Below, one piece after another: positions 22,094-36,125 of a stretch of DNA of 36,125 nucleotides. The notes below the pieces were generated by a model. That model saw nothing but the letters and a program-made list of their open reading frames with translations. It was not told where the DNA came from and did no database searches. Every line of letters starts with the position of its first letter. Position 1 is the stretch's first letter. The position numbers and the translations under genes were made by a program. Source of the DNA: Planctomycetota bacterium (GTDB lineage Bacteria; Planctomycetota; Phycisphaerae; Sedimentisphaerales; Anaerobacaceae); assembly GCA_014384025.1 (NCBI GenBank), contig JACNGQ010000111.1:1-36125 (forward strand), read 5' to 3'.

Positions 22094-22615
22094 CTAAAGA
22101 AGGCCTTTATTTTGAATTGAGTGTATCTGGCCTATGCATGTATTCTCCTCACGGAACTTCTTTGTATATATAAGTTCCAATTCTCGTGAGAAACCGATCT
22201 GTTTCAAAATTTCCTCTAATGAAATCCCTTGTTCAGATCTTCCAAGCAAGCCAAGCACTCTATAAACTACATGATCAGCAGAACAAACAAGCCAATCGTC
22301 CGAAGAATTACATAAAAATGCTAATGTTTCTTTTTCGCCAGCATGGATGCTAATATTATATTGTTGGTCGAACTTTTCGTGGAAGGCTTTAATATTAGAC
22401 AATTCTACATCAATAATCTTAACCAAATTTTGTTCTTCGTAAATATCAAGATTTATGCAAATATCCTTAAATTCTAAACTTGCAAATTTAGCTTCCTCTG
22501 CAACTGTACGAGAAATTGCAACATCACATTTGGTGATAAACTCATCCCAGATTTCCAACTGAAAGAGTTTTATAATTGGCCCAGCATCAAGCAATAGAAA
22601 GGGAAATCGTTTCAT
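22094..22615 (-). CDS. PIN-domain protein, probable ribonuclease toxin
   Basis: 173 residues from ATG at 22615. The frame is open further upstream, but only inside the preceding gene and without PIN character. Acidic PIN positions are visible: Asp10 in FLLLDAGPIIKL, Glu40/41 in TVAEEAKF, Glu94 in HAGEKETLAF and Asp114 in VCSADHVV. PIN nucleases of toxin-antitoxin systems cleave RNA with Mg ions. The gene overlaps the end of the XRE-ImmA-like gene by 29 bases, so translation is probably coupled, and the upstream protein is the natural antitoxin candidate. The sequence is visibly AT-richer than the aspS region, consistent with acquisition. Closest by impression is the DUF3368/DUF4411 type of PIN protein. 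Confidence 0.75.
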   Translation of the reverse strand: MKRFPFLLLDAGPIIKLFQLEIWDEFITKCDVAISRTVAEEAKFASLEFKDICINLDIYEEQNLVKIIDVELSNIKAFHEKFDQQYNISIHAGEKETLAFLCNSSDDWLVCSADHVVYRVLGLLGRSEQGISLEEILKQIGFSRELELIYTKKFREENTCIGQIHSIQNKGLL

Positions 22616-23702
22616 CCATGAAACCCTCGTCTTCCATGAGGTATTCTTGAGCTTTTTTGTAACTAATACCCATGTATTTTGCAAACTGCATTATAGACAG
22701 CTTCCCTTCCCTTAAAGCACGCAGTGCCAAATCACAATATCTCTCAGGTAATATCTCTTGGTTTTCAGATTCTCTATTTTTATCGAATTTGATCATCTTT
22801 TTGGCGGCATCGAGACATTTTTCAGTATCTTGTTTTTGAATTCTGAACAGATTAGCCATTCGGTAAACCAACGCATCTAAAGATACTCCGAATTCTCTGG
22901 CAATATCATCCAAGTGGTCAAGTTCAATTTGCCCTTGCTCGTTTTTTCGCAAATCAATCCTATCTCTTAAGGTATCATCAGGCATTAAGAGTTGGCTTGC
23001 AAATGCGTTCGCAAGTTTCTCTTCATTCTCAGTAGGTTGGGTATTTTGTGAACGGCAAGTAGCAAAAATATTCCATGTCAAAAGATGAAAGAGTTCGTGA
23101 GCAAGGTCGAAGTTCCGGCGCCACTGCTTGGTTGTTTTATCTATATTTAAAAGGACAGCATATCCATATTCCGGAGATAATGTCGAAATCGCACTTCCGG
23201 AAAAAGCTAAATGAAATATTTTCACATAGTATCGCTCTTCCAAAACTTGTTTAATTGAGGCACTTGGTATATCGCCAAGGCAAAATTGATTTTGGACCTT
23301 TCTTGCGAAAGACTCAGCTCGCTCGAACGTAAAGTCTTCCGGTCTATCAACATCCGGCTCCGGGAGCTTAGCCTTTCTTACCTCCCCTGTAAGCACCTCA
23401 AGATTACGGTATTGTTCACAAAGTTGAGCAAATTCCGCCTCAGTTCTTTTCTTTTCTTCTTCGCTGTTCGGTTTACTACGCCAAAGCATTACTTCTTCAA
23501 TAAATGGTTCATCGGTCAAGAAAAACTCCACTGTTCTGCGGTAAACCTCTGCTAACTTGCTGAGTTGGGAAAACTTCGGCTCTCTATTATCATTTTCAAA
23601 ATCACTTAGAGAGGACTGGCCTATTCCGCTTACACTTGAAGCCTTTTCCAGAGTGTAACCAATGGCTTTTCTTGCGATTTTGAGTCTTTTACCAATATTC
23701 AT
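22587..23702 (-). CDS. XRE repressor fused to ImmA/IrrE metallopeptidase, with UPF0175-like C-terminal HTH
   Basis: 371 residues. Residues 1-62 are an XRE helix-turn-helix (IGKRLKIARKAIGYTLEKAS, then GIGQSSLSDFENDNREP). Residues 130 to about 285 are the ImmA/IrrE (COG2856) zinc peptidase, with HELFH at 202-206 and the third-ligand glutamate in NEEKLANAFASQLLMP. Residues 317-357 (LPERYCDLALRALREGKLSI, then MQFAKYMGISYKKAQEYL) resemble the small UPF0175 antitoxin HTH that partners DUF3368-type PIN toxins. The architecture suggests one protein that represses the operon, neutralises the toxin and may be switched by proteolysis; that is inference. AGGAGG precedes the ATG and two matching operator candidates lie just upstream. 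Confidence 0.85.
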   Translation of the reverse strand: MNIGKRLKIARKAIGYTLEKASSVSGIGQSSLSDFENDNREPKFSQLSKLAEVYRRTVEFFLTDEPFIEEVMLWRSKPNSEEEKKRTEAEFAQLCEQYRNLEVLTGEVRKAKLPEPDVDRPEDFTFERAESFARKVQNQFCLGDIPSASIKQVLEERYYVKIFHLAFSGSAISTLSPEYGYAVLLNIDKTTKQWRRNFDLAHELFHLLTWNIFATCRSQNTQPTENEEKLANAFASQLLMPDDTLRDRIDLRKNEQGQIELDHLDDIAREFGVSLDALVYRMANLFRIQKQDTEKCLDAAKKMIKFDKNRESENQEILPERYCDLALRALREGKLSIMQFAKYMGISYKKAQEYLMEDEGFMDETISLSIA

Positions 23703-23837: not shown

Positions 23838-25343
23838 TTAATATCTTCTGGTAGTGGTTTTTGCGGGGTGGTTGTAGTTTATGAAGAAGTATCTCAGGGC
23901 GTCTATTGGGTGGTCGTAGAGGCCATCTTTTAGAGGTAGTTCGCCGGCGGCGGTGGCGGAGTGGGGATAGTGATAACACTGCATTGCTTCGACGAGGCGT
24001 GTGCATCTCGGTGAGATTAGAAGTGTGCTTTGGCCGGAGCCGGAGCGAACGGCCCGGCGGATAAGCTCTATGCCCTCGAGGATACCGCTTCGTCTGGAGC
24101 GTACTGCTATGCCTAAGCTGCGCAATTCCCGAACGGCACTTGTGCCGGTAACATCGTTTACTCCTTTGCCCGCGGGATCGCAAAACGTAGCGGCCACCTG
24201 CTCTTCGGGTACCGGAGTCCGGTTCTTAATCTCATCGGCGTGCACATCAATAGTCGCCCTGCTACGGACATACTCATCTATTATGCGCACGAGGCCGTCA
24301 GCATCAACCTGAATCCACAAACAAACAAAAGGATTTACAAATCCAAAATCAACTGCGCGGTAAAGCGGAAGATTAGGGTCGTAATCGACAGGCCGAACAT
24401 GTATGTCCGGGTCGAACTGAGCGAAGACCACATTTTCCCGCGAAGGTCTTTTGCAGAGCATCTCGGCCTCCCATCCGGGCCTGCTGGCCCGGCGCATCTG
24501 AGTTATGCAATCGTCGATTTTCAGATAGCCGTTGGTAGCTTTGGCCCTGCCCTGACAATCTTCCCATAAAAGACACTGCGAGCAGTTTCTATCGGTGCAT
24601 TTTTCAATCACTTCCCATATACACCATTTGAAGACGGGTGTGCCGAGCTGCGGTGCGGAAGAAACCACCTTTTGCATTAAGCCGTAAGGCCGATGCATAG
24701 TACTGATAAGCTCCATAGCAGCGGTGATATTTTGCGTGCTTTGTGTGGTGAACTTTGCGGCGGCGAAGACATCTTCATTGAAAAGCTCAAGCTCATCACA
24801 GCGGAGTTTTTGAATGTGCTGGCCACGGACACTGGTTGGTGACTGCGTGAGGACCTCAACTGCCGAGCTATTGGTGAATCGGCATTTTGATTTGAGGGCA
24901 GGCCCGGCTAACAAATGCTCGAGGCCGTTGTTTAGAAAAGCGGTCAGGTATTCATACATTCTGGCTGCCTGCTCACCTGAGCCGCCGAGTATTCTGATCT
25001 GGCAGTTCGGCTTAAAGATACAGTCCAGAAGCGTTGCGACTGCTGCCAATTCGGTTTTGCCGCCGGCACGGTTGGCCCAGATGACAGCATCGGCATTTGC
25101 CGGGCGCTTGTATCCCGAATGAGGAGCAACAATCGCATCGGCAGAAAAGCTGTGCCAGAGATAATCCATCGGGCTGCTGTGGTCGGGGCAAATACTTTTG
25201 TCGGGCACGTCAATACCGAGAAAGACCTTAACGTAGTTTCTCAGGTCGCGTTTAGTGGCCGGCCGAGTCCGCCGAAGCTCGACATAAATACGGGAAGCTT
25301 TCTCGAGGTCGGTGGAAGTTTGAGATAAAGCCATTTGTGTCAT
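23838..25343 (-). CDS. Phage terminase large subunit (ATPase-nuclease)
   Basis: 501 residues, a normal TerL length. The ATPase has Walker A ANRAGGKT (90-97) and Walker B LRCDE (Asp183-Glu184). The RNase H-like nuclease shows its acidic residues in YRAVDFGFVNP (Asp332), ATFCDPAGKGVND (Asp389) and DGLYDHPIDALRYF (Asp477/Asp481). TerL pumps DNA into a capsid and cuts it. Between the two domains lies an unusual cysteine set, Cys249-x4-Cys-x2-Cys-x5-Cys263, likely zinc or Fe-S binding. The start ATG has GGGGG upstream. In its module it is separated from the small-terminase candidate by a sulfatase and an oxidoreductase gene. No portal or capsid gene follows; the toxin-antitoxin pair lies downstream. 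Confidence 0.9.
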   Translation of the reverse strand: MTQMALSQTSTDLEKASRIYVELRRTRPATKRDLRNYVKVFLGIDVPDKSICPDHSSPMDYLWHSFSADAIVAPHSGYKRPANADAVIWANRAGGKTELAAVATLLDCIFKPNCQIRILGGSGEQAARMYEYLTAFLNNGLEHLLAGPALKSKCRFTNSSAVEVLTQSPTSVRGQHIQKLRCDELELFNEDVFAAAKFTTQSTQNITAAMELISTMHRPYGLMQKVVSSAPQLGTPVFKWCIWEVIEKCTDRNCSQCLLWEDCQGRAKATNGYLKIDDCITQMRRASRPGWEAEMLCKRPSRENVVFAQFDPDIHVRPVDYDPNLPLYRAVDFGFVNPFVCLWIQVDADGLVRIIDEYVRSRATIDVHADEIKNRTPVPEEQVAATFCDPAGKGVNDVTGTSAVRELRSLGIAVRSRRSGILEGIELIRRAVRSGSGQSTLLISPRCTRLVEAMQCYHYPHSATAAGELPLKDGLYDHPIDALRYFFINYNHPAKTTTRRY

Positions 25344-25445
25344 TATTATACCCCCTGATTTGGTGTGTTGTTTAAAAACAGAGCGCAGGATTCAATCGCC
25401 AAATAATCCCCCCTTTCATTATGTGATTATGTATTTATGCTATTG

Positions 25446-28400
25446 TTACTGCGTGGCCGAAGTCTCCACCATGAAATTGCGTGTGATGCCGCTATGCAGA
25501 TTTATCGGCAGGCCCTGCTGCAATTGTGCGCCTGTATATACTTTTTTTGAATTGAATGCCAGGTCGTGAACGGCATAGCGATTTTCGGCTTTGGCTGTGA
25601 ACCATTCAGGGAACTGATTGATTCTGGGCCAGTCAAGGGGCATCTTCATAATCGTTTTATGACGCGGCGAGTCAAAGATAATTTTTCCTGTGTAACCTCT
25701 TCGGGAGCTGATACTTATTTTAAGAGCATCACCATCCAGAACGGCCCCGAAAATGACATCATTACTCCATGGCTCGATAGTGAGTCCCTTTGTTTTCCAG
25801 AGGCAGTACATAATCGTAGTTCTGGCGAAGTTGCCGTCTCCGTGCCACCCTTCGATGATACCGCTGCTTTTCTGCATGCTCCACATAATCTTTATTTCGC
25901 TGTCCATCCAATCAGCGACGGATGGGACTAGTTCACGATTGTAAAGGTTAATTGCGCTTTCAATGGAATCGGCATAGTCATCGGAGCCCCCCCAATTATA
26001 CCGGTGGTAGTTGTAATAATTATTGAGGTTTATCAGTGCCGTACGAACGGCCAGACGATAGGCCTCGGTATTATCGATCAGATATACGGTGTAAAAGCCG
26101 TTGAGGTTATAGCCCCATGTATCGGCAAGGCCCTGGTCGTGTCTACCTGTTTTAGTATTGGCGGAGTTATAGAACATGCCATGTTGATTTCTGCCTACCT
26201 GAAGGACGTTATCGAGCATGACATGAATGGATTTTTGGTAGGCATTTTTCCTGGCCGGCATTGCAAAACTGACCGTCGCATAAAGTTCGCAAAGACCTGA
26301 GATAATTTCGCAGCCGTGGTCACGTAACTTGATTATGGTTTCATCCCTTGTCGGGTGATGATTGCCCAACAAATAATAGTCCCCAAGCCGCATTGCCCAA
26401 TAGAGATATTTGCTGTCGCCGGTCATCCAGTATATTCGGGACAAGACCTGGAGCATTTCGCCGTTAGTTTCCTGGCTGCGTGAGACGATATTACCGTAAT
26501 TTGTTTGCTCGGGCGCATGCATCCACATATCGTCGAGTATGTTGATCATACGTTCGGACCAGGGACTCGGGCCGAGCCATTCGGTCAGCGGCAGCAGGCC
26601 GTCTTTGACGTATTCGGAAGAACCGAAGATGATACGAGCTATATCAGGCTTTTTAAAAAAGAAATCCTGCTTTGAAAAAGAATACGTATCCGGCAAACGG
26701 TCGATACGGGATGTAAGTATGGTTTCCGCGCGAAGCATCTCCATCATCCTGCCCTTGAAGAGAGCCGGGTTCGTGATGGCCGCGGTAAGGACCATAAAAG
26801 GGTAATTGTCGGCGGCGCTGTCCTCGGCGTTCCATATGTCCCTGTCTCGGTCTAAATTTCTGGGTATGAGGCGGCTTCTGGGGTCGGCCTGCTGGAGCCA
26901 TCCCCTGACGAAGTTTTGGCAACGAATAAATCCTTCGTTGGCGAGTTTACCGTTTTCCGCGGCCAGCCCGAAAGCTTTATCATTTGTTTCGTTGACCTTT
27001 CCGACACCCTGTTTTGCCAATTGTGTGAGCCTGCTTAAATGGTCCTGATAAACGCCGCGAGGGTTAGTGTTGTATTTTTTACAAAGCGAGGCGGCCATAC
27101 CGACAAGCTCGCCCATCATACCGCACGTGCGCATAACTCGGACCGTTCCCAGGGCCACGTGGGTAACGCTTATACATCGACCGGCCATCATCAGATTTTG
27201 TATATTGCGTGAATACAGGCAACGGTATGGAATTGGGTACGGCTTGATTTTAGGTTGCGTACAGATGGTACGGAATTCTTCGCCCGGGAAATATTTAGTG
27301 TTTTCCGGGTCCGGATAGTGCAGGTCTATCGACCAGGTGCTGGTTACAAAAGCGTCGGGAAATCTATTTCGCTTCTGGATGTCCTGCTGCTGAAGTATTA
27401 CGTCACCGAGCAGCCGGCGGGATTCGCGTTTGCCGCCTATGTAAGCCACCCAGTCGAGCTTAAGTTTGGCATATTTGTCTTTATTTCGACTGTGGTTTTT
27501 CTGAAAGGCCCAGTTTCCGTAAATTGCTCTAAATGAATGATCGCGTATATATTCGAATTCGGTAATTTGGTCGCGGCTTAGTCCGGCTTCCCAGTTCCAG
27601 TCACCTCTGGTTGCCTGCTGGCAGCTTTCCTCGGTGAACTGCAAGGCCCAGGGACAATCGGGAAATATTGTAGGCTGATTGGACTGCGCCGAATACCACA
27701 TTACAGATGCGCCCATAGTCATCTTGTCGGGCTTTTCGGGTGCCATGGATTCGCCGGTCTGTTCTTTGCTTTCGCGTCCCATACGATACTCGGCGCCGGC
27801 CAGATAGCCAAGAGTGCCGTCACCTGTGCAATCGACAAACAATGGTGCGCGGAAGCTAAATTCGCTGCCGTTGATAATGTGTTTGGCGATGACGGCGACG
27901 ATACGGTCGCCCTGCTTTTGAACTTTGAACGCATGCATATTTACGAACAGGTGGATATTTTCCTCCGCCTGTACGAGGCTCATTTTTCGGTTGTCATCAT
28001 AGAACTGGGCGGGTCTTGCATTTCCCTGATGTCCGGAGTCGAGTTCTCTTACGACGTTGCCTATGGCCGGGTAAGGCGGAAGGTTGATTTCGCCCCCGAG
28101 ATGGACGCGGACTTCGGAGCTGTTGTTGCCGCCCAATACGGGTCGGTTTTGTATAAGGGCCACCTGCAGGCCAAGCCTTGCGGCCGAGACGGCTGCGCAG
28201 GATCCAGACATTCCGCCACCGACCACGACCAAATCAAAATTGCCGGCGTCTTTCGGCTGAGAACTCAGGCCCAGCATCTGGCTTCGAAAAGCGGCCATTT
28301 GCTCACCGGCATTCGGCGGCACAAAATTAGTATCGGTAGTAAAAATAATCGCATCACAACGGCCCTCGAAGCCGGTTAAGTCGTGCAGTGAAACGGCGAT

Positions 28401-28811
28401 CTGCAGATTAGTTACTATAATCGCCCCGCCCTGCTGCCAGTGCCAGTCTGCACCTTCGGTTCCGAAGATTGCATTTAGCGGCATACCATTGACGAGTACC
28501 TGGAACCTTCCCGGAGCGCCCGGCGCCTTCCATGGCGCCACCCAGTCTCGTGTTCGGACCCATACGCGGTATGTTCCTGCAACCGGGAACGTAACCGATG
28601 TTACAGCGTCGCTGACCGGCTTACCTAAACCGTGAGCTAAAAGAAACGGTGAGCCCATCTGGTCCATAAACTGCTGGTCAAGAACCCAGCCGCCATGGTT
28701 AGTAAAGGCCTCAGCTTCAACAAGGATAGTTTCTGCGGCGGTAATAGAAGCAAAGGACAGTAGTAAAGTTACACATATCAGTATGCTTCGGACAGGCGTA
28801 CTATTTTTCAT
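25446..28811 (-). CDS. Large exported FAD-dependent oxidoreductase with N-terminal CBM-like and C-terminal helical domains
   Basis: 1121 residues. Signal peptide at 1-26. Residues 28 to about 160 are a beta-sandwich (ILVEAEAFTNHGGWVLDQQF, FPVAGTYRVWVRTRDW, FQVLVNGMPL) like carbohydrate-binding modules in polysaccharide utilisation enzymes. The FAD Rossmann motif is DLVVVGGGMSGSCAAVSAARL near 193-213, followed by PVLGGNNSSEVRVH and LFVDCTGDGTLGYLAGAEY, as in the FAD_oxidored (PF12831) family. From about 720 the protein is helix-rich (SKYLYWAMRLGDYYL, GLADTWGYNLNGFYTVYLID), suggesting an alpha/alpha toroid as in some glycoside hydrolases and lyases. The substrate is probably a sugar or uronate but unknown. 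It lies 132 bases after the sulfatase on the same strand, and together they form the insert within the packaging module. Confidence 0.85.
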   Translation of the reverse strand: MKNSTPVRSILICVTLLLSFASITAAETILVEAEAFTNHGGWVLDQQFMDQMGSPFLLAHGLGKPVSDAVTSVTFPVAGTYRVWVRTRDWVAPWKAPGAPGRFQVLVNGMPLNAIFGTEGADWHWQQGGAIIVTNLQIAVSLHDLTGFEGRCDAIIFTTDTNFVPPNAGEQMAAFRSQMLGLSSQPKDAGNFDLVVVGGGMSGSCAAVSAARLGLQVALIQNRPVLGGNNSSEVRVHLGGEINLPPYPAIGNVVRELDSGHQGNARPAQFYDDNRKMSLVQAEENIHLFVNMHAFKVQKQGDRIVAVIAKHIINGSEFSFRAPLFVDCTGDGTLGYLAGAEYRMGRESKEQTGESMAPEKPDKMTMGASVMWYSAQSNQPTIFPDCPWALQFTEESCQQATRGDWNWEAGLSRDQITEFEYIRDHSFRAIYGNWAFQKNHSRNKDKYAKLKLDWVAYIGGKRESRRLLGDVILQQQDIQKRNRFPDAFVTSTWSIDLHYPDPENTKYFPGEEFRTICTQPKIKPYPIPYRCLYSRNIQNLMMAGRCISVTHVALGTVRVMRTCGMMGELVGMAASLCKKYNTNPRGVYQDHLSRLTQLAKQGVGKVNETNDKAFGLAAENGKLANEGFIRCQNFVRGWLQQADPRSRLIPRNLDRDRDIWNAEDSAADNYPFMVLTAAITNPALFKGRMMEMLRAETILTSRIDRLPDTYSFSKQDFFFKKPDIARIIFGSSEYVKDGLLPLTEWLGPSPWSERMINILDDMWMHAPEQTNYGNIVSRSQETNGEMLQVLSRIYWMTGDSKYLYWAMRLGDYYLLGNHHPTRDETIIKLRDHGCEIISGLCELYATVSFAMPARKNAYQKSIHVMLDNVLQVGRNQHGMFYNSANTKTGRHDQGLADTWGYNLNGFYTVYLIDNTEAYRLAVRTALINLNNYYNYHRYNWGGSDDYADSIESAINLYNRELVPSVADWMDSEIKIMWSMQKSSGIIEGWHGDGNFARTTIMYCLWKTKGLTIEPWSNDVIFGAVLDGDALKISISSRRGYTGKIIFDSPRHKTIMKMPLDWPRINQFPEWFTAKAENRYAVHDLAFNSKKVYTGAQLQQGLPINLHSGITRNFMVETSATQ

Positions 28812-28943
28812 TTTTACCTCTTTGATTAACGAAACAAATTCACATAAATCATTTTCTTATCGGCCAGATGCCTGTCGTAGTTTATCTTCGCGTTAAGTAC
28901 TTATTGTAACAGTTTACACCCGTATATTCACTTTTCAGTATTG

Positions 28944-30332
28944 TTAAGAGCTTTTTATTTCTACCGGATACTTCTCCCATGGTACGGCGCCAGCTTCGAT
29001 GATGTGATTGCGCAGAGCGGTAAAGAGTCTTTGATACATTCTGTGCTTTATGCCAAGCGGATTCTGTTCCTGCGGGTCGTCTTTTAGGTTGTAGAGTTCC
29101 AGCGGTTCAAAGGGACTGTTCTGGACGAGTTTATAGTCGCCATAGCGTGCGGCATAATAAGCACGCCCTCCGTACCCGCCACCTTCACGGCGCACCCAAA
29201 AGAGGAAACGGTCCTCTTGGGGCTGGTCGCTGCCGAGCAGAGTCGGCAGGATGCTTCTGCCATCTATCTTGTGCACAATATCAGCGCCCGCAGCATCGCA
29301 GATAGTCGGAAATAAATCCATAGTTAGAGCGAGGCGATTACTTCGTGAGCGAGGTTCTATTCTGCCCGGCCAGACGGCACACATAGGTTCGCGGATACCG
29401 CCTTCGTACATATCCTGTTTGCCGGCTCTGAGAGGGCCGTTGTTTGCTCCGACGTTAAGCTGGCCGCCATTGTCAGAAGTGAAGATGACCAGTGTGTTCC
29501 CGCTTTGGCCGGAGTTTTTCAGAGCGGCTATCACCCTGCCGATGCCATCATCAAGATGCTCGATTAGTGCGACGAGTTTTGCACGTTTATCACTGATATT
29601 ATTTTCGCGATTTTTGATGCGCTTAATCCAATCGTCAGGGGGCTGGATCGGCGTGGGCGGCGCGTTGTACGCAAGATATAAAAAGAACGGCTGTGCTGCT
29701 TTTGAGCGGGAGTTAATATAATCGACAGACCACTGTGTGAACAAATCAGTGGCGTGTCCTTTGGGATCAATTTCTTCGTTGTTCAGACGCATATAGTTAT
29801 TGCCGTGGCGACGATGGTTGTAGTAGTCGTCCATCATATCGCCGAGGAAGCCGTGGAAGTGATCGAAGCCCCGCTCGTTCGGAGTGTTCGGAGATTCCAA
29901 TCCGAGGTGCCACTTACCGACCATCGCAGTGTGATATCCAGTGCGGTTAAGAAGCTTCGGCAGCAGCACTGCCTGCGGAGCCAGATAACCCCAGTTGTTT
30001 GTCAGGTGTGTGCGGATAACACCGGGGACGCCGACAAGGTCGGGGTATCTGCCGGTCAGCAGCGATGCCCGCGTGGGCGAGCAGACGGGGCAGTTGGCGT
30101 AAAAGTTATCGAAGCGCATACCGGAAGCCATGAGCTTGTCGATATTGGGTGTTTGCATGTCTTTCGCGCCGTAGCTGGAGAGGTCTCCGTAGCCAAGGTC
30201 ATCGACAAGAATCATAAGTATATTAGGCCTGTTAGCTGTGCGCTCTGCGGCTAATGCACAGCCTGAGATTGCAAGTGACGCCACTGTTGTACCGGCGGCT
30301 CTGAGGAATTTACGTCGTGTGTAATTAATCAT
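28944..30332 (-). CDS. Exported formylglycine-dependent sulfatase
   Basis: 462 residues. The N terminus MINYTRRKFLRAAG is a Tat signal followed by a lipobox-like SGCA (Cys25). The sulfatase signature C-S-P-T-R-A-S-L-L-T-G runs 84-94, and Cys84 would be converted to formylglycine by a maturase (not in this window). Metal ligands Asp44-Asp45 in LVDDLGYGD, MVGKWHLG and TSDNGG are all present. It removes sulfate esters from glycans, typically marine or mucin-type polysaccharides; the exact substrate cannot be read. AAGGAG lies nine bases before the ATG. Paired with the FAD oxidoreductase downstream, it fits a glycan-degradation pair, but sits between the two terminase genes. Confidence 0.92.
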   Translation of the reverse strand: MINYTRRKFLRAAGTTVASLAISGCALAAERTANRPNILMILVDDLGYGDLSSYGAKDMQTPNIDKLMASGMRFDNFYANCPVCSPTRASLLTGRYPDLVGVPGVIRTHLTNNWGYLAPQAVLLPKLLNRTGYHTAMVGKWHLGLESPNTPNERGFDHFHGFLGDMMDDYYNHRRHGNNYMRLNNEEIDPKGHATDLFTQWSVDYINSRSKAAQPFFLYLAYNAPPTPIQPPDDWIKRIKNRENNISDKRAKLVALIEHLDDGIGRVIAALKNSGQSGNTLVIFTSDNGGQLNVGANNGPLRAGKQDMYEGGIREPMCAVWPGRIEPRSRSNRLALTMDLFPTICDAAGADIVHKIDGRSILPTLLGSDQPQEDRFLFWVRREGGGYGGRAYYAARYGDYKLVQNSPFEPLELYNLKDDPQEQNPLGIKHRMYQRLFTALRNHIIEAGAVPWEKYPVEIKSS

Positions 30333-30476
30333 ATCAGCCTGCTCCTTAACAGCATGATTACTTACTGATAGTGTTCAAAACTGCTTCGATTATAATCTTA
30401 TTATACTTTGCTTTAATTTGCGAATTCTTATTATAGTTTTTGCGGAAAAGGCATGAGGCCTGCACATCATTGACAA

Positions 30477-30920
30477 TTACAGCTTATTAATTGTTTTTTC
30501 TTCGGCAAGGACGGCCAGGAGTTTGCCTGCGGTTTCGTCGTTAAGCGAGGCCGGGAACCGGGTGTCGGCAGGTTGAGGTTCGTCGGATGGCTGAACTTTC
30601 CTGTTGGCTGTCAGTATCGGCATAGAGATTATATCCAGGCAGGCTTTTCGGGCAGTCTCGGGCTTGTCGGATTCTGTGAGCTGAATCAGTTTTGCCGCCG
30701 CTACGGGTGCGTAACGCGCAATCAAAACATCACTTTGGCGATACGCATCGGTGATGCGCTTCTCGAACTGTTCGGCGAAACTATCGTCATTTCGCCACTG
30801 GTTATAAAGCTTCCTGCTGAGCTTGTATTTGTCCAGTATTGCCTGTTCGTCAAGCTCGCCGGCGAACAGGTCCTCTATTACGGCAAGCTGTTTTTTTGTT
30901 AATTGCTTTGCTCCGGGCAT
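30477..30920 (-). CDS. Terminase small-subunit-like DNA-binding protein
   Basis: 147 residues. The N terminus LTKKQLAVIEDLFAGELDEQ, then AILDKYKLSRKLYNQWRND, is a helix-turn-helix of the phage small terminase type (phBC6A51-like). It is followed by a helical stretch (FEKRITDAYRQSDVLIARYA, then PVAAAKLIQLTESDKPETAR) typical of the oligomerisation region, and a proline-rich tail. Small terminases recognise the packaging site and load TerL. GGGGAGG precedes the ATG. It is the last gene before the sulfatase/oxidoreductase pair. The fold is convincing, and the assignment is supported by the terminase large subunit on the same strand 5.1 kb downstream. Confidence 0.7.
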   Translation of the reverse strand: MPGAKQLTKKQLAVIEDLFAGELDEQAILDKYKLSRKLYNQWRNDDSFAEQFEKRITDAYRQSDVLIARYAPVAAAKLIQLTESDKPETARKACLDIISMPILTANRKVQPSDEPQPADTRFPASLNDETAGKLLAVLAEEKTINKL

Positions 30921-31022
30921 TATTAGAACCTCCCCATTATATTGTGGATAATCGGATAAGCGGACATACTAACGTCCACTCGCATTGAGGTATAAATCTG
31001 CTTTTTACACTTTGAATACTTT

Positions 31023-31394
31023 TTAACTTTTTTTGCGTCGCTTTCGGGGGCGAGATTTGATGGCTTTGAAATAGCTCTCTGATTTTCTAACTCCCAATTG
31101 ACGGGCTTTGGTTTTTATCGAACCGGCGGAACGTTTAAGCCGCTCGGCGAGCTCTGTTGTTAACGTGTTGGGGTAAAGCTTTTTGAGCAGTTGCAGATCT
31201 TCCTTCGTCCAATAATTGTACACGTCACTTTTCATCCCGATATCGTATGCTTTTTGACGCACCGCCGTCAAAGGCCGATTTAGCCGCTCAGCTATCTTCC
31301 TTATGTTTCCGAAGGGGTATAGTTTTTTGAGCAGTCTTATATCTTTCTTTGTCCACGACCATGGCCCCTTGATGAGTTCTTTTTTCTTTGCCAT
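31023..31394 (-). CDS. Double SANT/Myb-like helix-turn-helix protein
   Basis: 123 residues made of two direct protein repeats of about 45 residues. The first is WTKKDIRLLKKLYPFGNIRK with IAERLNRPLTAVRQKAYDIG; the second is WTKEDLQLLKKLYPNTLTTE with LAERLKRSAGSIKTKARQLG. Each has the W-x-x-x-E/D-x-x-L-L-K-K-L-Y start and A-E-R-L-x-R / A-V-x-x-K-A recognition helix of SANT/Myb-like DNA-binding domains common in phage-borne regulators. A very basic tail (SRPRKRRKKS) ends it. GAGG lies upstream of the ATG. It stands in the packaging module between the ParB-like and TerS-like genes, probably binding module DNA. Confidence 0.75.
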   Translation of the reverse strand: MAKKKELIKGPWSWTKKDIRLLKKLYPFGNIRKIAERLNRPLTAVRQKAYDIGMKSDVYNYWTKEDLQLLKKLYPNTLTTELAERLKRSAGSIKTKARQLGVRKSESYFKAIKSRPRKRRKKS

Positions 31395-31534
31395 TGTACA
31401 ACCTCGTGATATTGACTATTTTCTATTTAATTGCAAAGGTTAATTCCTTTGTTAAAAGTCAATTTTCAAGAATAGAGTCTCAATTGTCAATAGTTTTTTC
31501 GTTGTTTTCCTTTACAAAACGTACCGGTTATTTT

Positions 31535-32212
31535 TTACAGGCTGACTTGTTGAGAATTTATAAATTCCTGAGCTATGTATGTAAGAGCGGCCGCATTCTT
31601 CACAGCCCTTGTCCGGTTTTCTTTGACCCATTCGGCTTCGCTCAAGGCAGGCTTCTGTTGGCTCATTGCGTCCGACAGTGCTTTTGCAATAACCTCCTGC
31701 TGTTTGTCGTTTAAGAAAAACACCAGCGGATTTAATATCTGGGTTTTGCTTTTTTCAACCGCCTTTAGGCAATCGGAAATCGCCAATTCGGTGAGACGTT
31801 TAATTTGATTTGACGTTTGGGGCAGAAGTTTTGCCAATTTGGCTGTTCGTCCGTCAAATGCGGATTTATTCAGCCTTTTGAGCAGAGCCAGCTTCTTATC
31901 AAGAACATCCGAGCCGCCAAGGCGGTTAAGCGTAGCAAGGAGTATGTCAGTATCCTGATCATTGACGTCCCAGACAAGAGCTTCAGCGGTTTTATAACCA
32001 AGCTCTCTCAAGGCCCGCCAGCGATGATGGCCGTTGATTATCTGGAAACAGTCCGGTTTTCGCGGGCATGGGCGAACCACCAACGGCTCGTATCGGACGG
32101 TCCTTTCTATGTTACGAACCAACTTCGCAAACTTAGCTTTACTCATTCGGTTAGGATTGTCCGGATGAGCAACGAGTTTATCAAGTGCTATCGATTGAAC
32201 CTGGTTAAGCAT
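31535..32212 (-). CDS. ParB/sulfiredoxin-like nuclease-domain protein
   Basis: 225 residues. The ParB N-terminal fold is clear: IALDKLVAHPDNPNRMSKAK, EPLVVRPCPRKPDCFQIING and the signature GHHRWRALRELGYKTAEALVW. The remainder is helical (DVLDKKLALLKRLNKSAFDG), without the long HTH and dimer domain of chromosomal ParB, as in phage ParB-like proteins found near terminases. Near the C terminus the residues PALSEAEW are encoded by a dispersed repeat that seems to have inserted in frame. It starts five bases after the GNAT gene stop, so the two are translationally linked. It may act as a nuclease or as a packaging-site factor; neither can be decided from sequence. Confidence 0.8.
   Translation of the reverse strand: MLNQVQSIALDKLVAHPDNPNRMSKAKFAKLVRNIERTVRYEPLVVRPCPRKPDCFQIINGHHRWRALRELGYKTAEALVWDVNDQDTDILLATLNRLGGSDVLDKKLALLKRLNKSAFDGRTAKLAKLLPQTSNQIKRLTELAISDCLKAVEKSKTQILNPLVFFLNDKQQEVIAKALSDAMSQQKPALSEAEWVKENRTRAVKNAAALTYIAQEFINSQQVSL
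31626..31651 (-). repeat. Dispersed repeat inside the ParB-like gene, encoding ALSEAE
   Basis: ACCCATTCGGCTTCGCTCAA continues into GGCAGG. Read on the minus strand it encodes PALSEAEW; on the plus strand it gives the DPFGFAQGR series. Both peptides are typical of a small palindromic repeat that recurs in many bacterial genomes. It splits the C-terminal helix of the ParB-like protein without breaking the frame. Confidence 0.55.
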
Positions 32213-32217
32213 AATAA

Positions 32218-32961
32218 CTAAATATGAAATCTGAAATTCGAAATTGATTCATTGAACCAGATATAATAGACAGGCCTGGCGTTAAGCCTGCTCAAAATGT
32301 ATTTTGTTCGCTCCGGGCCCGGGTGCATATTCCTGCGGCGGCCGTAACCTTTAAGAAAACGCTTAATTTCACGCTCTATAAATTCAGCTTCGGCACGGGT
32401 AAGCTGAGTGAGTTTTTCCTGCACTTTTTCAGGGTCGATAAGATCTTTATCTTCTATCCCAATCATGCCGAGGGCTTCGATGAGCTGTTCAAAACGTTTT
32501 GGCAGCTTCGACGCATAAGGCATCATTCCCGCTTTTTCGAGGAACGGATTGACCTGTCCCATAACCGCCATCGCTTCGATGATCGGGACGTTCATTTTCG
32601 GCATAGTCTGCTGTACTAATCTTTTTGCAAGTCCCAATCCGCGAAACCTCGGGGCGATAATGACTCTGCTGATGCAGCGAATGTTCCTGTTAATAAGCTC
32701 AAGCTGTGTGTTCCTGTCGAAGCCGGAAAAGAAATTATCCGTAGCCGCCCCGCGAAGCTCCAGCCTCGGACTCGGCATCGAGTAAACGATGACACCGATG
32801 TTTTTTTCCCGGGCAGGTCCTGCTGCTTCATTTCGCAAAATAAATATTTTCTCGAACGGACCCGGGCGACAGTGGCGATAGTGATAATGCGAAAGCTGCA
32901 TATAATCATCAAGACAGCCGGGGACAATTTGAACTTTTTTGCATACTGAACACTGTTTCAT
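32218..32961 (-). CDS. GNAT-family acetyltransferase with N-terminal Cys/His cluster
   Basis: 247 residues. The N terminus holds CSVCKK, Cys16 and SHYHYRHC (Cys31), a likely zinc site. The GNAT core follows, with IGVIVYSMPSPRLELRG on strands 2-3 and the acetyl-CoA motif RVIIAPRFRGLGLAKRLVQQ at 99-118 (R-G-L-G-L-A), then VPIIEAMAVMGQVNPFLEKAG. The last 90 residues are helical and basic. GNAT enzymes of this shape occur in phage and plasmid genomes beside ParB-like proteins; the acceptor is unknown. It is the first gene of the minus-strand module and leads the ParB-like gene by five bases. Confidence 0.78.
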   Translation of the reverse strand: MKQCSVCKKVQIVPGCLDDYMQLSHYHYRHCRPGPFEKIFILRNEAAGPAREKNIGVIVYSMPSPRLELRGAATDNFFSGFDRNTQLELINRNIRCISRVIIAPRFRGLGLAKRLVQQTMPKMNVPIIEAMAVMGQVNPFLEKAGMMPYASKLPKRFEQLIEALGMIGIEDKDLIDPEKVQEKLTQLTRAEAEFIEREIKRFLKGYGRRRNMHPGPERTKYILSRLNARPVYYIWFNESISNFRFHI

Positions 32962-33329
32962 ATCTGCCTTTTTGATTTTTCCTTATGCCGGCCGGGCACA
33001 AACTATTACTTAAGACAAGCGATATACTTTATATATCCCCCCCTATAATTAGAGCAGTGTGCACATTTGACACGAAAATTGATGATTTTTTTAGCAAGCC
33101 GATTGCTCTAAGTGCTTATCAGGAAATGAGTAAAAAAATATTTGAAAAATTTTATTTTTGTTTTCAAGAGTGAGCGTTTTTGACCGAAAATTCCAAAGAA
33201 AAGACCTATAAAGAGAGTGTTCTGATTGAATAAAACTGCGTTATTCCAACAATTAAAGACTGAAAAAAAGCCATTTTCCTGAAATGAGGTAATTTTCTAC
33301 ATAGGAAAACAGTTAAAATTAGGAAAATA
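32962..33329. other. AT-rich divergent spacer, no gene seen
   Basis: This 368-base stretch separates the minus-strand module from the plus-strand genes. It contains a C-run (33037-33043) and, shortly before 33330, inverted short motifs ATTTTCCT / AGGAAAAT (33271-33278 and 33321-33328), which may form an operator for the plus-strand gene. A 62-codon frame here shows no protein character. Confidence 0.4.
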
Positions 33330-33947
33330 GTGATTAGGATAACAGAAAAAGAAATAATTCAATATCTGCAAAATTCCGGCAGGCAATATGCACCTTTAGT
33401 AATCAATCGCCTTGAAGAGCAGGTTAATCTGGCAGATGGATATCAGGCTGATGCAATTATAGGGTTCTCGATTCCGGACGGGCCCTGTTTCGAAGCTTTG
33501 GTGGAGATTGCATCTGTAGCGACGCCAAAAAATATCCTTCAAAAATCACTACAACTTTCTGTTAATATTAGTAAAGCAAACAAACCTGATATAATCCCCC
33601 TCCTAATAGCTCCCTATATAGGCAAGAAACAGGCTCAGATGCTGGAGGATAAGGGCATTTCATGGATAGACCTTTCCGGCAGTATGTCCGTCAAGGTTTC
33701 AAACCAGATATATATTGAACGTACCGGCCAGAGGAACCGATTTCCCGACACGGCTCCTATCAAAAAAATCTTCCAGGGAACATCCTCTCTGGTAAGCAGA
33801 GCTTTACTGCTGACACCGGAAGGCTTCTCATCTTTGTATGAAGCAGTTGATTTTATCAATGAGCGTAATGTTGGCATTACGCTATCAACAGCATCAAAAG
33901 TTATAAAATCTCTTGAAGATGATGGCCGATACGCCAAGAGGCCCTAA
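33330..33947 (+). CDS. Truncated nuclease-fold/winged-helix protein, probably a decayed gene
   Basis: 205 residues from a GTG start with AGGA five bases upstream. The first half (AIIGFSIPDGPCFEALVEIA, ATPKNILQKSLQL, PLLIAPYIGKKQAQMLEDKG, then ISWIDLSGSMSVKV) resembles PD-(D/E)XK-like proteins with an E-x-K centre, but here the position reads VEIAS, so the catalytic lysine is gone. The second half (KIFQGTSSLVSRALLL, ITLSTASKVIKSLEDDG) is a MarR-like winged helix. The frame ends abruptly in RYAKRP. A shift to the next frame continues PKIAEQLKKNFKQG before TGA at 33985, the expected end of the domain. Frameshift plus truncation suggests a dying gene; a short regulator remains possible. Confidence 0.6.
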   Translation: MIRITEKEIIQYLQNSGRQYAPLVINRLEEQVNLADGYQADAIIGFSIPDGPCFEALVEIASVATPKNILQKSLQLSVNISKANKPDIIPLLIAPYIGKKQAQMLEDKGISWIDLSGSMSVKVSNQIYIERTGQRNRFPDTAPIKKIFQGTSSLVSRALLLTPEGFSSLYEAVDFINERNVGITLSTASKVIKSLEDDGRYAKRP

Positions 33948-34056
33948 GATTGCTGAACAATTAAAAAAGAATTTTAAACAAGGTTGATGTTAACCCGGAT
34001 TTCCCATATTAAGGTGGCGCATTTGATATTGATTTGATATTATAGGGCCTATCGAT

Positions 34057-35301
34057 ATGTATAAATCAAGCACACACAGTTCGCTTCCTTTCCTAACCAC
34101 CCAATTTGATGGGACAGGAGGTACAATAAAGACATATGAAGAAGATTTTTTCGTTGAAGAAATCCCTTCATATATTCCTTGCGGAGAGGGGACACATATT
34201 TATGCCCAAATCGAAAAAAATGGAATATCAACGATGGATGCACTGGTTCAGATTGCCAATGCGCTGCGGATAACTCGAAAAGAAATCGGCTATGCCGGCC
34301 TGAAAGATGCTCATGCTGTCACAAGGCAGTGGATTTCCATAGAGCATATAAAACCGGAACGGTTACTGTCACTTGATATTCCTAATATTAAGATTATTCA
34401 AATTGCCCGTCATTATAACAAGCTGAAATTGGGCCATCTTGCCCGCAATCGGTTTGTTATTCGTCTTCGAAATCTCAAATTTCCTCTGAAACAATCAGTT
34501 AAAATAGCTGAACGCATCATAGCAGTTCTGATTCGTAAGGGTGTGCCGAATTATTTTGGAGGCCAGCGATTCGGTATTCGCAGTGACACCCACCTGTTGG
34601 GTGAAGCTATTTCAAAAGTCAAAATAGAGGAGTTTGTTGACATTTTCCTTGGCCAACCAGCAATAGATGAGTCGTCGACTTTTGCTGTCGCACGCTCATT
34701 TTATGAAAGAGGTGATTATAAAAAAGCTCTCAATACATGGCCATATTCATACTCAAATCAGCGTCGTGCATTAAAGGCTCTCATTGTAAATAAGGGTAAT
34801 AAAAAAAAGGCTTACAATATAATAGACAAACATCTCAAAAGGTTTTTTGTATCTGCGTATCAATCTGACCTTTTCAACCAGGTTCTTGCCGCTCGCATGC
34901 CTGGCATTGACAAGCTTTTTGTCGGGGATATGGCTTATAAACATATTAATGGTGCATGTTTCCGAGTGGATGATGCTGTTTTGGAGCAACCTCGCTGTGA
35001 TGTCTTTGAGATTAGCCCTACAGGACCTCTATTGGGCTCTCATATGACTAGGTTGACTGGACCAGCCGGTGATATTGAAAACTCGGTGTTAAATACTGCA
35101 GGATTGGAAAGCGGGGATTTTCAGCAAATGAGCAAGTATGGTGGCCGGGGAGGCCGTCGGCCTCTGCGTTTTCGGCCTCACCATCCCAAGGTTACCACAA
35201 GTCAGGATAAATTGGGGCCTTATATCGAATTGCAATTCGAACTTGATTCCGGCTGCTATGCAACTTCTTTTATTCGGGAAATTAGCAAAACCAATCTATA
35301 A
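34057..35301 (+). CDS. truD: tRNA pseudouridine(13) synthase TruD
   Basis: 414 residues, longer than E. coli TruD (349). TruD isomerises U13 of tRNA-Glu. Catalytic Asp84 lies in YAGLKDAHAVTRQW, the exact family motif. Other landmarks are EDFFVEEIPSY, HLARNRFVIRLRN and VPNYFGGQRFG. The region from about 230 to 330 holds the TRUD insertion (RAFKALIVNK-like helices, FFVSAYQSDLFNQVLAARMP). The C terminus (RRPLRFRPHHPKV, then LDSGCYATSFIREI) is the usual finish and shows the gene is complete. It follows the truncated gene by about 70 bases on the same strand. It is slightly AT-rich for a housekeeping gene. Confidence 0.93.
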   Translation: MYKSSTHSSLPFLTTQFDGTGGTIKTYEEDFFVEEIPSYIPCGEGTHIYAQIEKNGISTMDALVQIANALRITRKEIGYAGLKDAHAVTRQWISIEHIKPERLLSLDIPNIKIIQIARHYNKLKLGHLARNRFVIRLRNLKFPLKQSVKIAERIIAVLIRKGVPNYFGGQRFGIRSDTHLLGEAISKVKIEEFVDIFLGQPAIDESSTFAVARSFYERGDYKKALNTWPYSYSNQRRALKALIVNKGNKKKAYNIIDKHLKRFFVSAYQSDLFNQVLAARMPGIDKLFVGDMAYKHINGACFRVDDAVLEQPRCDVFEISPTGPLLGSHMTRLTGPAGDIENSVLNTAGLESGDFQQMSKYGGRGGRRPLRFRPHHPKVTTSQDKLGPYIELQFELDSGCYATSFIREISKTNL

Positions 35302-35490
35302 GTTTATTCAACAATAGACTCTGCTAAGGAACTAAAAGGTCACTGTACGAAAACGAAAAGATTTGTATTTTGGCAGCAGATTAATTATGAGTATCATTTT
35401 TGAAAAAGCATCCAATTTATATCACTTTATTTTTCTCTTAGCGCATAGCACTTACTGCTCCTGATAGTATTTTCGGCTTTATATAATGTG

Positions 35491-35666
35491 AACTTTCGCA
35501 CTTTTAACGATGTGTTAACTTGGGCAATTTGCATCAATAGGCCGATTTGACAACAATCGAATTATTTTTGGCAAGTTCGAGGTATTTTCCGAACATTCAT
35601 AAAATACAAAACGGCTTCTAAATGCTTGTTTAATAAGGTTTTCCTTAATAAAAAAGTGCGAAAGTT
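35491..35666. repeat. 15-bp perfect inverted repeat flanking 146 bases upstream of the HNH gene
   Basis: AACTTTCGCACTTTT (35491-35505) and AAAAGTGCGAAAGTT (35652-35666) are exact reverse complements. With one mismatch the arms extend to GTGAAC/GTTAAC. The right arm ends six bases before the HNH start codon and covers its ribosome-binding region. It could be a pair of operators, the ends of a small element, or a long-range RNA stem. No coding frame lies between, and nothing else is seen in the 35302-35672 spacer. Confidence 0.6.
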
Positions 35667-35672
35667 AACTAA

Positions 35673-35993
35673 ATGAAAAATGAAATTAAGAAGATAGGAG
35701 ATGCTATTTTGGCTCACGTCCGTTCCGCAATACGTGAGGCAGCAAAAGGCGATGCTGATTTTGAATTTAAACTGAATCGCTGGGTGTTTACAAGGCTACA
35801 GGGAGATGGTCGGAAACAAAGCAAACCCATAAAACAAAAATTGTGGGATTCCGGCATAAGACAGTGCCAAGCTTGCAGGAAAAATTTCTTAAACATCAAG
35901 GGAGTCGAAATTCATAGAAAAGATTCTTCTTTATGTTACTCCGTTGAAAACTGCGAACTAATGCACAGGCAATGTCATCAAAAGAAAACTTAA
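35673..35993 (+). CDS. Small HNH-type nuclease-fold protein
   Basis: 106 residues. The second half shows an HNH-type zinc fold: Cys65-x2-Cys68 (RQCQACRKNF), VEIHR with His81, and ENCELMHRQCHQKK with Asn93, His98, Cys101 and His102. The N-terminal 55 residues are helical and charged (KLNRWVFTRLQGDGRKQSKP). HNH proteins of this size occur in phage packaging modules, group I introns and mobile elements. Here it stands alone on the plus strand, so its link to the terminase module is only proximity. The start lacks a clear ribosome binding site; the inverted repeat occupies that region. Confidence 0.65.
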   Translation: MKNEIKKIGDAILAHVRSAIREAAKGDADFEFKLNRWVFTRLQGDGRKQSKPIKQKLWDSGIRQCQACRKNFLNIKGVEIHRKDSSLCYSVENCELMHRQCHQKKT

Positions 35994-36006
35994 TTCACAA
36001 TTTCGG

Positions 36007-36051
36007 CGACGGGTGGCAGCCACTGAGTGAACGCAGTGAGCGAAGTGGATG
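36007..36051 (-). repeat. Dispersed repeat, inverted copy of 6283-6327
   Basis: Read on the minus strand, CATCCACTTCGCTCACTGCG continues into TTCACTCAGTGGCTGCCACC. It matches 6283-6327 at 40 of 45 positions. The copy follows the HNH gene by about 13 bases. The two copies, nearly 30 kb apart in opposite orientation, show that the motif is a genome-wide repeat. Confidence 0.65.
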
Positions 36052-36125
36052 TTAGTTCTCGAATATCCAGAATCGAGCAATTTTCGACAAAATACGCTCA
36101 AAAACTAACCCAATTCATCAAAAAC

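Follow-up and report, generated by a model that had tools for sequence, protein, structure and literature searches.

A minus-strand run of packaging genes

The window analysed here is a stretch of 36,125 bp that makes up the entire contig C30 of a 6.7-Mb MAG from the planctomycete class Phycisphaerae. On its minus strand lies a run of seven genes that begins with a GNAT acyltransferase (32218-32961; phrog_886, 2e-12) and a ParB-like protein (31535-32212; ParB_N PF02195, 1e-10; phrog_8071/723), continues with a double SANT/Myb-like HTH protein (31023-31394; phrog_323, 3e-18) and the terminase small subunit TerS (30477-30920; phrog_2538, 7.5e-10), and ends with an exported sulfatase (28944-30332; Sulfatase PF00884, 5e-62), an exported FAD-dependent oxidoreductase (25446-28811; FAD_oxidored PF12831, 1e-74) and the terminase large subunit TerL (23838-25343; phrog_2, 1e-18). 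An initial annotation of the same DNA had listed these genes in this order, and all seven open reading frames were found, with profile searches that agree with their names. Read from GNAT to TerL, the intergenic gaps are 5, 140, 102, 144, 132 and 102 bp; among the gap sizes given in that annotation, 5, 140 and 144 were recovered, while a gap of 82 was not found.

The TerS match to phrog_2538 spans residues 6-111, and the protein is kept across the class, though a Pfam search gave no HTH match for it. In the window TerL, both the Walker A/B motifs and the RNase H nuclease motifs are intact: residues R92, G95-K96-T97, D183-E184, D332, E357, D389 and D481 are invariant in 12 class-wide homologues. 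For the acyltransferase, AlphaFold gives a confident GNAT fold (pLDDT 86.8), and its structural matches single out no substrate. We had considered a close relationship to the Mom protein of phage Mu and dropped it, as the Foldseek matches are GNATs of a general kind, headed by NAT10, and Mom ranks only 41st. A defence system was likewise set aside because TerL, TerS and GNAT have no PADLOC match.

Two further genes on the same strand lie between 22094 and 23702, where a regulator with an XRE-type HTH and an ImmA/IrrE-type (M78) domain (22587-23702; HTH_3 and Peptidase_M78; NF052239, RmrA-like in PADLOC) overlaps a gene for a PIN-like protein (22094-22684). The start codon of the latter is uncertain and its name reflects a sequence pattern only, with no match in Pfam. 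On the other side of the run, a non-coding element on the minus strand (33024-33191) stands upstream of the GNAT-ParB-SANT-TerS genes. Just upstream of GNAT, synteny with a related locus (L035) is broken (window 33255-36125 against positions 1-295 of contig C147, described below): beyond the break the window carries UP205 and TruD, and the expected rubrerythrin-like gene and ABC-HTH genes lie at the end of C147. This break points to a rearrangement or insertion in the window genome.

A conserved module and its variable interval

Across the families of the Phycisphaerae we find a conserved chromosomal module with one gene order, HTH-ABC ATPase-GNAT-ParB-(SANT)-TerS-TerL. Far beyond chance, the order seen in the window is repeated in all 39 loci where both terminase genes were present, and ParB adjoins GNAT in 35 loci with a median gap of 34 bp. 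The SANT gene is limited to part of the family (6 of 37 loci of the order with a long upstream flank). This bears out the earlier proposal that the genes form one packaging module, as did the comparison with Phycisphaerae relatives that the initial annotation had called for: the GNAT-ParB-(SANT)-TerS-TerL order is conserved there, and TerS and TerL are adjacent in many of them.

Of the 161 genomes of the order, 127 have TerL (58/66 among those of high quality), as do 203/397 genomes of the class, normally as a single copy. Profile matches below E 1e-100 are confined to the class, and outside it the profile finds weak matches only (2e-75 for the best, the others weaker than 1e-35). Among viruses, just three viral contigs reach 42-43% identity, and the nearest TerL of isolate phages stands at 21-34%. 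Identity to the window TerL tracks that of AspRS (Spearman rho 0.89, n = 92 genomes), and a quick TerL tree mostly matches family labels. In family f1, the module often sits a few genes upstream of AspRS, so that its position is conserved there. On an IMG/VR contig (L032, 3190-7821; also L031), TerL is split into two open reading frames: ParB and a small protein are followed by one gene for the nuclease domain of TerL, a TerS-like gene and another for the TerL ATPase domain.

The interval between TerS and TerL is the variable part of the module, with a median gap of 1942 bp compared to medians of 34-91 bp at the other junctions. The earlier observation that two glycan genes split the packaging module is borne out in 11 of the 39 loci with both terminase genes, which hold the sulfatase and FAD-dependent oxidoreductase between them; the two subunits are adjacent (29-371 bp) in 13, and the remaining 15 have other content, i.e., an RpiB-like gene in seven and different genes in eight. 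Since the two terminase genes adjoin each other in the loci examined from families f5, f11, f20, f22 and f25, the metabolic genes most likely entered the interval later, within the order to which the window belongs. Another suggestion, that the pair is transmitted by particles, found no support, and the sulfatase and oxidoreductase look like chromosomal genes that have settled in the interval. They could alternatively be a functional part of a particle system rather than hitch-hikers, e.g., by removing exopolysaccharides for particle release or entry, and such a role in release or entry is speculation. Their shared strand, short gaps, recurrence in 11/39 loci and purifying selection would fit a functional part, which we nonetheless consider rather unlikely given that in other lineages the interval is empty or occupied by an RpiB-like gene or by genes of unrelated kinds and that the head cluster described below is conserved without the pair.

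Head genes at a second locus of the same genome

The initial annotation had noted the absence of portal, capsid and integrase genes. This is correct for the 36-kb window, which contains none of them, but portal and capsid genes are present elsewhere in the same genome. A search of the window genome with the ABC ATPase (92% identity) located contig C147 (locus L289), which carries the ABC ATPase and HTH genes and, divergent from both, an 11-kb head/tail cluster. This cluster encodes an SPP1-type portal (SPP1_portal PF05133, 2e-15), a scaffold protein (Phage_scaffold PF06810, 2e-6), an SU10-type major capsid protein (SU10_MCP PF17236, 3e-87) and a gp80-like fibre/tail protein (PF23140, 3e-44). 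It also contains genes for a LamG protein, a 609-aa protein and several small products of virion type. Several tail genes had no family match in profile searches, and no lysis gene was identified. We had considered the 609-aa protein as a tail hub and dropped this idea because its AlphaFold model is too poor (pLDDT 51).

The SPP1-type portal occurs in 109 of 159 genomes of the order (53 of 66 good ones) and the SU10-type capsid in 162/377 genomes of the class, and the head cluster is colinear in every genome read. Three genomes (G252, G096 and G243) have more than one capsid match each, four in the case of G252, which may be duplicates or fragments. At one locus (L288, 3408-5662), HTH-ABC and the portal are separated by nitroreductase-like and PfkB-like genes, and other loci likewise carry metabolic genes inside the element.

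Several lines of evidence connect the packaging and head genes. In a genome of the same genus (G068, locus L320), a single contig holds TerL, GNAT and ABC-HTH in this succession, then the divergent portal. A locus of family f15 (L349) even presents HTH-ABC-GNAT-TerL-portal-scaffold-capsid as one co-directional run beside a divergent S24 repressor, and both parts fit within 20 kb in L351 (f20), L352 and L359 (both f10); in other genomes the distance ranges from <2 kb to >1 Mb. Furthermore, the non-coding element upstream of GNAT in the window (33024-33191) matches positions 5760-5929 of C147 upstream of the portal (blastn, 77% over 171 bp, E 3e-30), and other genera of the family have it before their portal gene, as G068 and G059 have it before GNAT. 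We rejected an RNA leader as an explanation for this element since structure prediction gave no RNA structure.

At the level of genomes, TerL and portal occur together in 95 cases, TerL alone in 29, portal alone in 14 and neither in 23 (Fisher p 3.5e-5, a significance that is overstated because the test counts genomes as independent). The roughly 29 genomes with TerL but no detected portal and the 14 with the reverse are explained partly by gaps in MAGs and partly by loss. Portal identity tracks both AspRS (rho 0.95, n = 70) and TerL (rho 0.95, n = 63), and distances between capsids, portals and TerL proteins agree with each other (Mantel 0.88, 0.91 and 0.96; 0/2000 permutations). Most head and packaging genes have dN/dS values of 0.04-0.2, near those of AspRS (0.06-0.12), with ca. 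0.05 for the capsid, 0.13-0.17 for TerL, ca. 0.19 for GNAT and ca. 0.3 for HTH.

A candidate gene transfer agent of the Phycisphaerae

Taken together, we read the window genes as one half, that for packaging, of a particle system that derives from phages and was domesticated in the Phycisphaerae. This system, known from its genes alone, is most likely a gene transfer agent (GTA), a reading to which we would give a probability of roughly three in four. The sequences are best explained by a GTA lineage that would be new to Planctomycetota, with no relationship to RcGTA and with its genes split between loci. Like GTAs, the system combines phage-type packaging and virion genes (TerS, TerL, portal, scaffold, capsid and gp80-like fibre) with vertical inheritance in a stable single copy, purifying selection on structural genes, no integrase or replication gene in the intervals scanned and a division of genes over several loci, in the window genome between C30 and C147. 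Points that weigh against this reading are the genomes in which only one of TerL and portal was detected, the lack of a visible S24 repressor at the window locus and of an identified lysis gene, the tail genes with no family match and the poor model of the 609-aa protein. The initial annotation had suggested a domesticated, possibly gene-transfer-agent-like unit, and this is the best-supported class.

Division over several loci is common among known GTAs. They are firmly established in only a few lineages, and reviewers have asked whether the distant ones are outliers or widespread (PMC11841831). RcGTA of Rhodobacter capsulatus and CcGTA of Caulobacter share with our system phage-derived head and packaging genes, long vertical inheritance and distribution over several loci (PMC11841831). 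However, the Phycisphaerae system differs from both in its SU10-type capsid (PF17236) and SPP1-type portal (PF05133) and adds the ABC ATPase/GNAT/ParB set and the S24 repressor. The capsid and portal of the RcGTA type, the HK97 families PF05065 and PF04860, were not found in the window genome, and both families, which are common in ordinary prophages, occur only sporadically among its relatives (PF04860 in 6/88 and PF05065 in 11/88 of the family). FpGTA of Faecalibacterium, a podovirus-like agent outside the Alphaproteobacteria, is similarly split into two operons ca. 125 kb apart, but it belongs to another phylum, and its packaging was inferred from sequencing of packaged DNA while our system is known only through its genes (PMC12946183). 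VSH-1 of Brachyspira also has a divided genome (Stanton 2009, cited in PMC11841831); its host is from a different phylum, and the likeness considered here is one of genome organisation. Among the open-access literature searched, we found no GTA of Planctomycetota, and given this scope the novelty of the lineage for the phylum is likely though not certain. A genomic survey of Phycisphaerae mentions neither phage nor gene transfer (PMC11266412).

The closest phage counterparts of the module are nickie, RHEph10, RHph_N1_15 and SSU5, which carry ParB, ABC ATPase and GNAT (phrog_886) genes near TerL as in the Phycisphaerae, and the first three also have an HTH gene and the portal within the same stretch. 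These are free phages of ca. 103-117 kb, while the Phycisphaerae module is chromosomal, and they use capsid phrog_212 and portal phrog_145 instead of the SU10 and SPP1 types; the phrog_145 portal is found in just 2/68 genomes of the order. Still, their similar ParB-ABC-GNAT-HTH-TerL-portal order, the phage relatives of all genes and the phage-like S24 and XRE-ImmA regulators would suit a prophage or prophage-remnant lineage common in Phycisphaerae, with the window as a decaying piece. We regard this as unlikely because temperate prophages are sporadic and have integrase and replication genes, whereas the system described here is found as one copy per genome with host-tracking divergence, a conserved position near AspRS in f1 and purifying selection, and it has no close virus (33% for the best isolate capsid, 43% for the best viral TerL). 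A scan of 56 ORFs in the intervals of L324, L348, L349, L351 and L352 showed no integrase or replication gene among the 25 of 43 Pfam families listed and the 16 PHROG families. In GC-rich loci the ORFs were taken stop-to-stop and then profile-searched. ORFs in the intervals of compact loci matched metabolic families of the host, a toxin and proteins of phage tails.

A further alternative is that the terminase module alone was domesticated for a particle-free, capsid-independent host role in DNA repair, segregation or defence. The sporadic occurrence of PF04860, phrog_145 and PF05065 had suggested such a lone terminase, which we dropped after finding a portal and a capsid of other families on C147. 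It would agree with the 29 of 124 TerL genomes in which no portal was detected and with the presence of ABC ATPase, ParB and GNAT, which suggest DNA handling or modification (PMC7824862). Given that capsid and portal are as conserved and vertical as TerL, that the upstream element is common to both operons and that both parts are contiguous in other families, this role is quite improbable. Least probable is a PICI-like satellite with metabolic cargo that exploits helper phages, in line with the "satellite-like" label of the initial annotation. Terminase, HTH, regulator and cargo genes do lie in one stretch, but satellites have an integrase, vary in presence between strains and use a helper capsid. 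Here, the stretches scanned showed no integrase, the distribution is near-universal and vertical and not sporadic, and the genome has a portal and capsid of its own.

How might a GTA of this kind be controlled? A divergent XRE-S24 repressor is found in 13 loci, all outside the family of the window, and its Ala-Gly bond and Ser/Lys pair are invariant. In sequence terms, these residues correspond to the autocleavage signature of LexA/CI/UmuD, from which SOS induction of the element is a fair inference. No S24 repressor is visible at the locus of the window genome. Family f1 often has an XRE-ImmA(M78) gene, fused or paired, just 3' of TerL; XRE-M78 lies directly downstream of TerL in nine loci, and a PIN-like gene stands beside it in eight. 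This pair is possibly a toxin-antitoxin pair, with the PIN-like protein as a putative toxin, or a regulator of the GTA.

Particle production could then start with derepression, through the S24/LexA-type repressor in other families and possibly through the XRE-ImmA regulator in the window genome, and both operons would be switched on from the upstream element that they share, if the element is active as its position suggests. Procapsids would assemble around the portal, as expected from the gene content, and TerS-TerL, whose catalytic residues are in place, would presumably cut host chromosomal DNA and fill the heads by a headful mechanism. Before packaging, the ABC ATPase/GNAT/ParB set might mark, modify or select DNA, and the particles would finally deliver fragments of host DNA to relatives. 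In jumbo phages, acylation of DNA bases is the predicted function of an ABC-ATPase and GNAT pair (PMC7824862), and the same gene pair is present here. Unlike that predicted system, the Phycisphaerae pair is chromosomal and linked to a terminase, and its modification activity is putative. It is possible, though tentative, that all of this amounts to an independent class-wide GTA in which acyl-modification by ABC ATPase, GNAT and ParB marks host DNA, a LexA-like repressor acts in most families and the polysaccharide-degradation pair was recruited to the terminase operon in one lineage.

If the GTA reading is true, a whole class of abundant bacteria that degrade polysaccharides would have maintained a GTA lineage that has capsid and portal types of its own and possibly modifies DNA; it could be a route for glycan-degradation genes to spread in sediments. 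A concrete gene list and closed genomes are now at hand for testing this reading.

Two minor observations concern head genes. Most genomes of family f11 have no TerL of the window type or only a weak match to it, and all nine loci read (L273-L281) share a pair of portal (phrog_2662, PF04860) and head maturation protease (phrog_80) genes with no other common neighbour among these nine; could the class have domesticated another head fragment here? Finally, one "viral" contig (L340, IMGVR_UViG_3300031673_016560) carries the head cluster with 87% capsid identity and may be a chromosomal GTA locus that was called as a virus.
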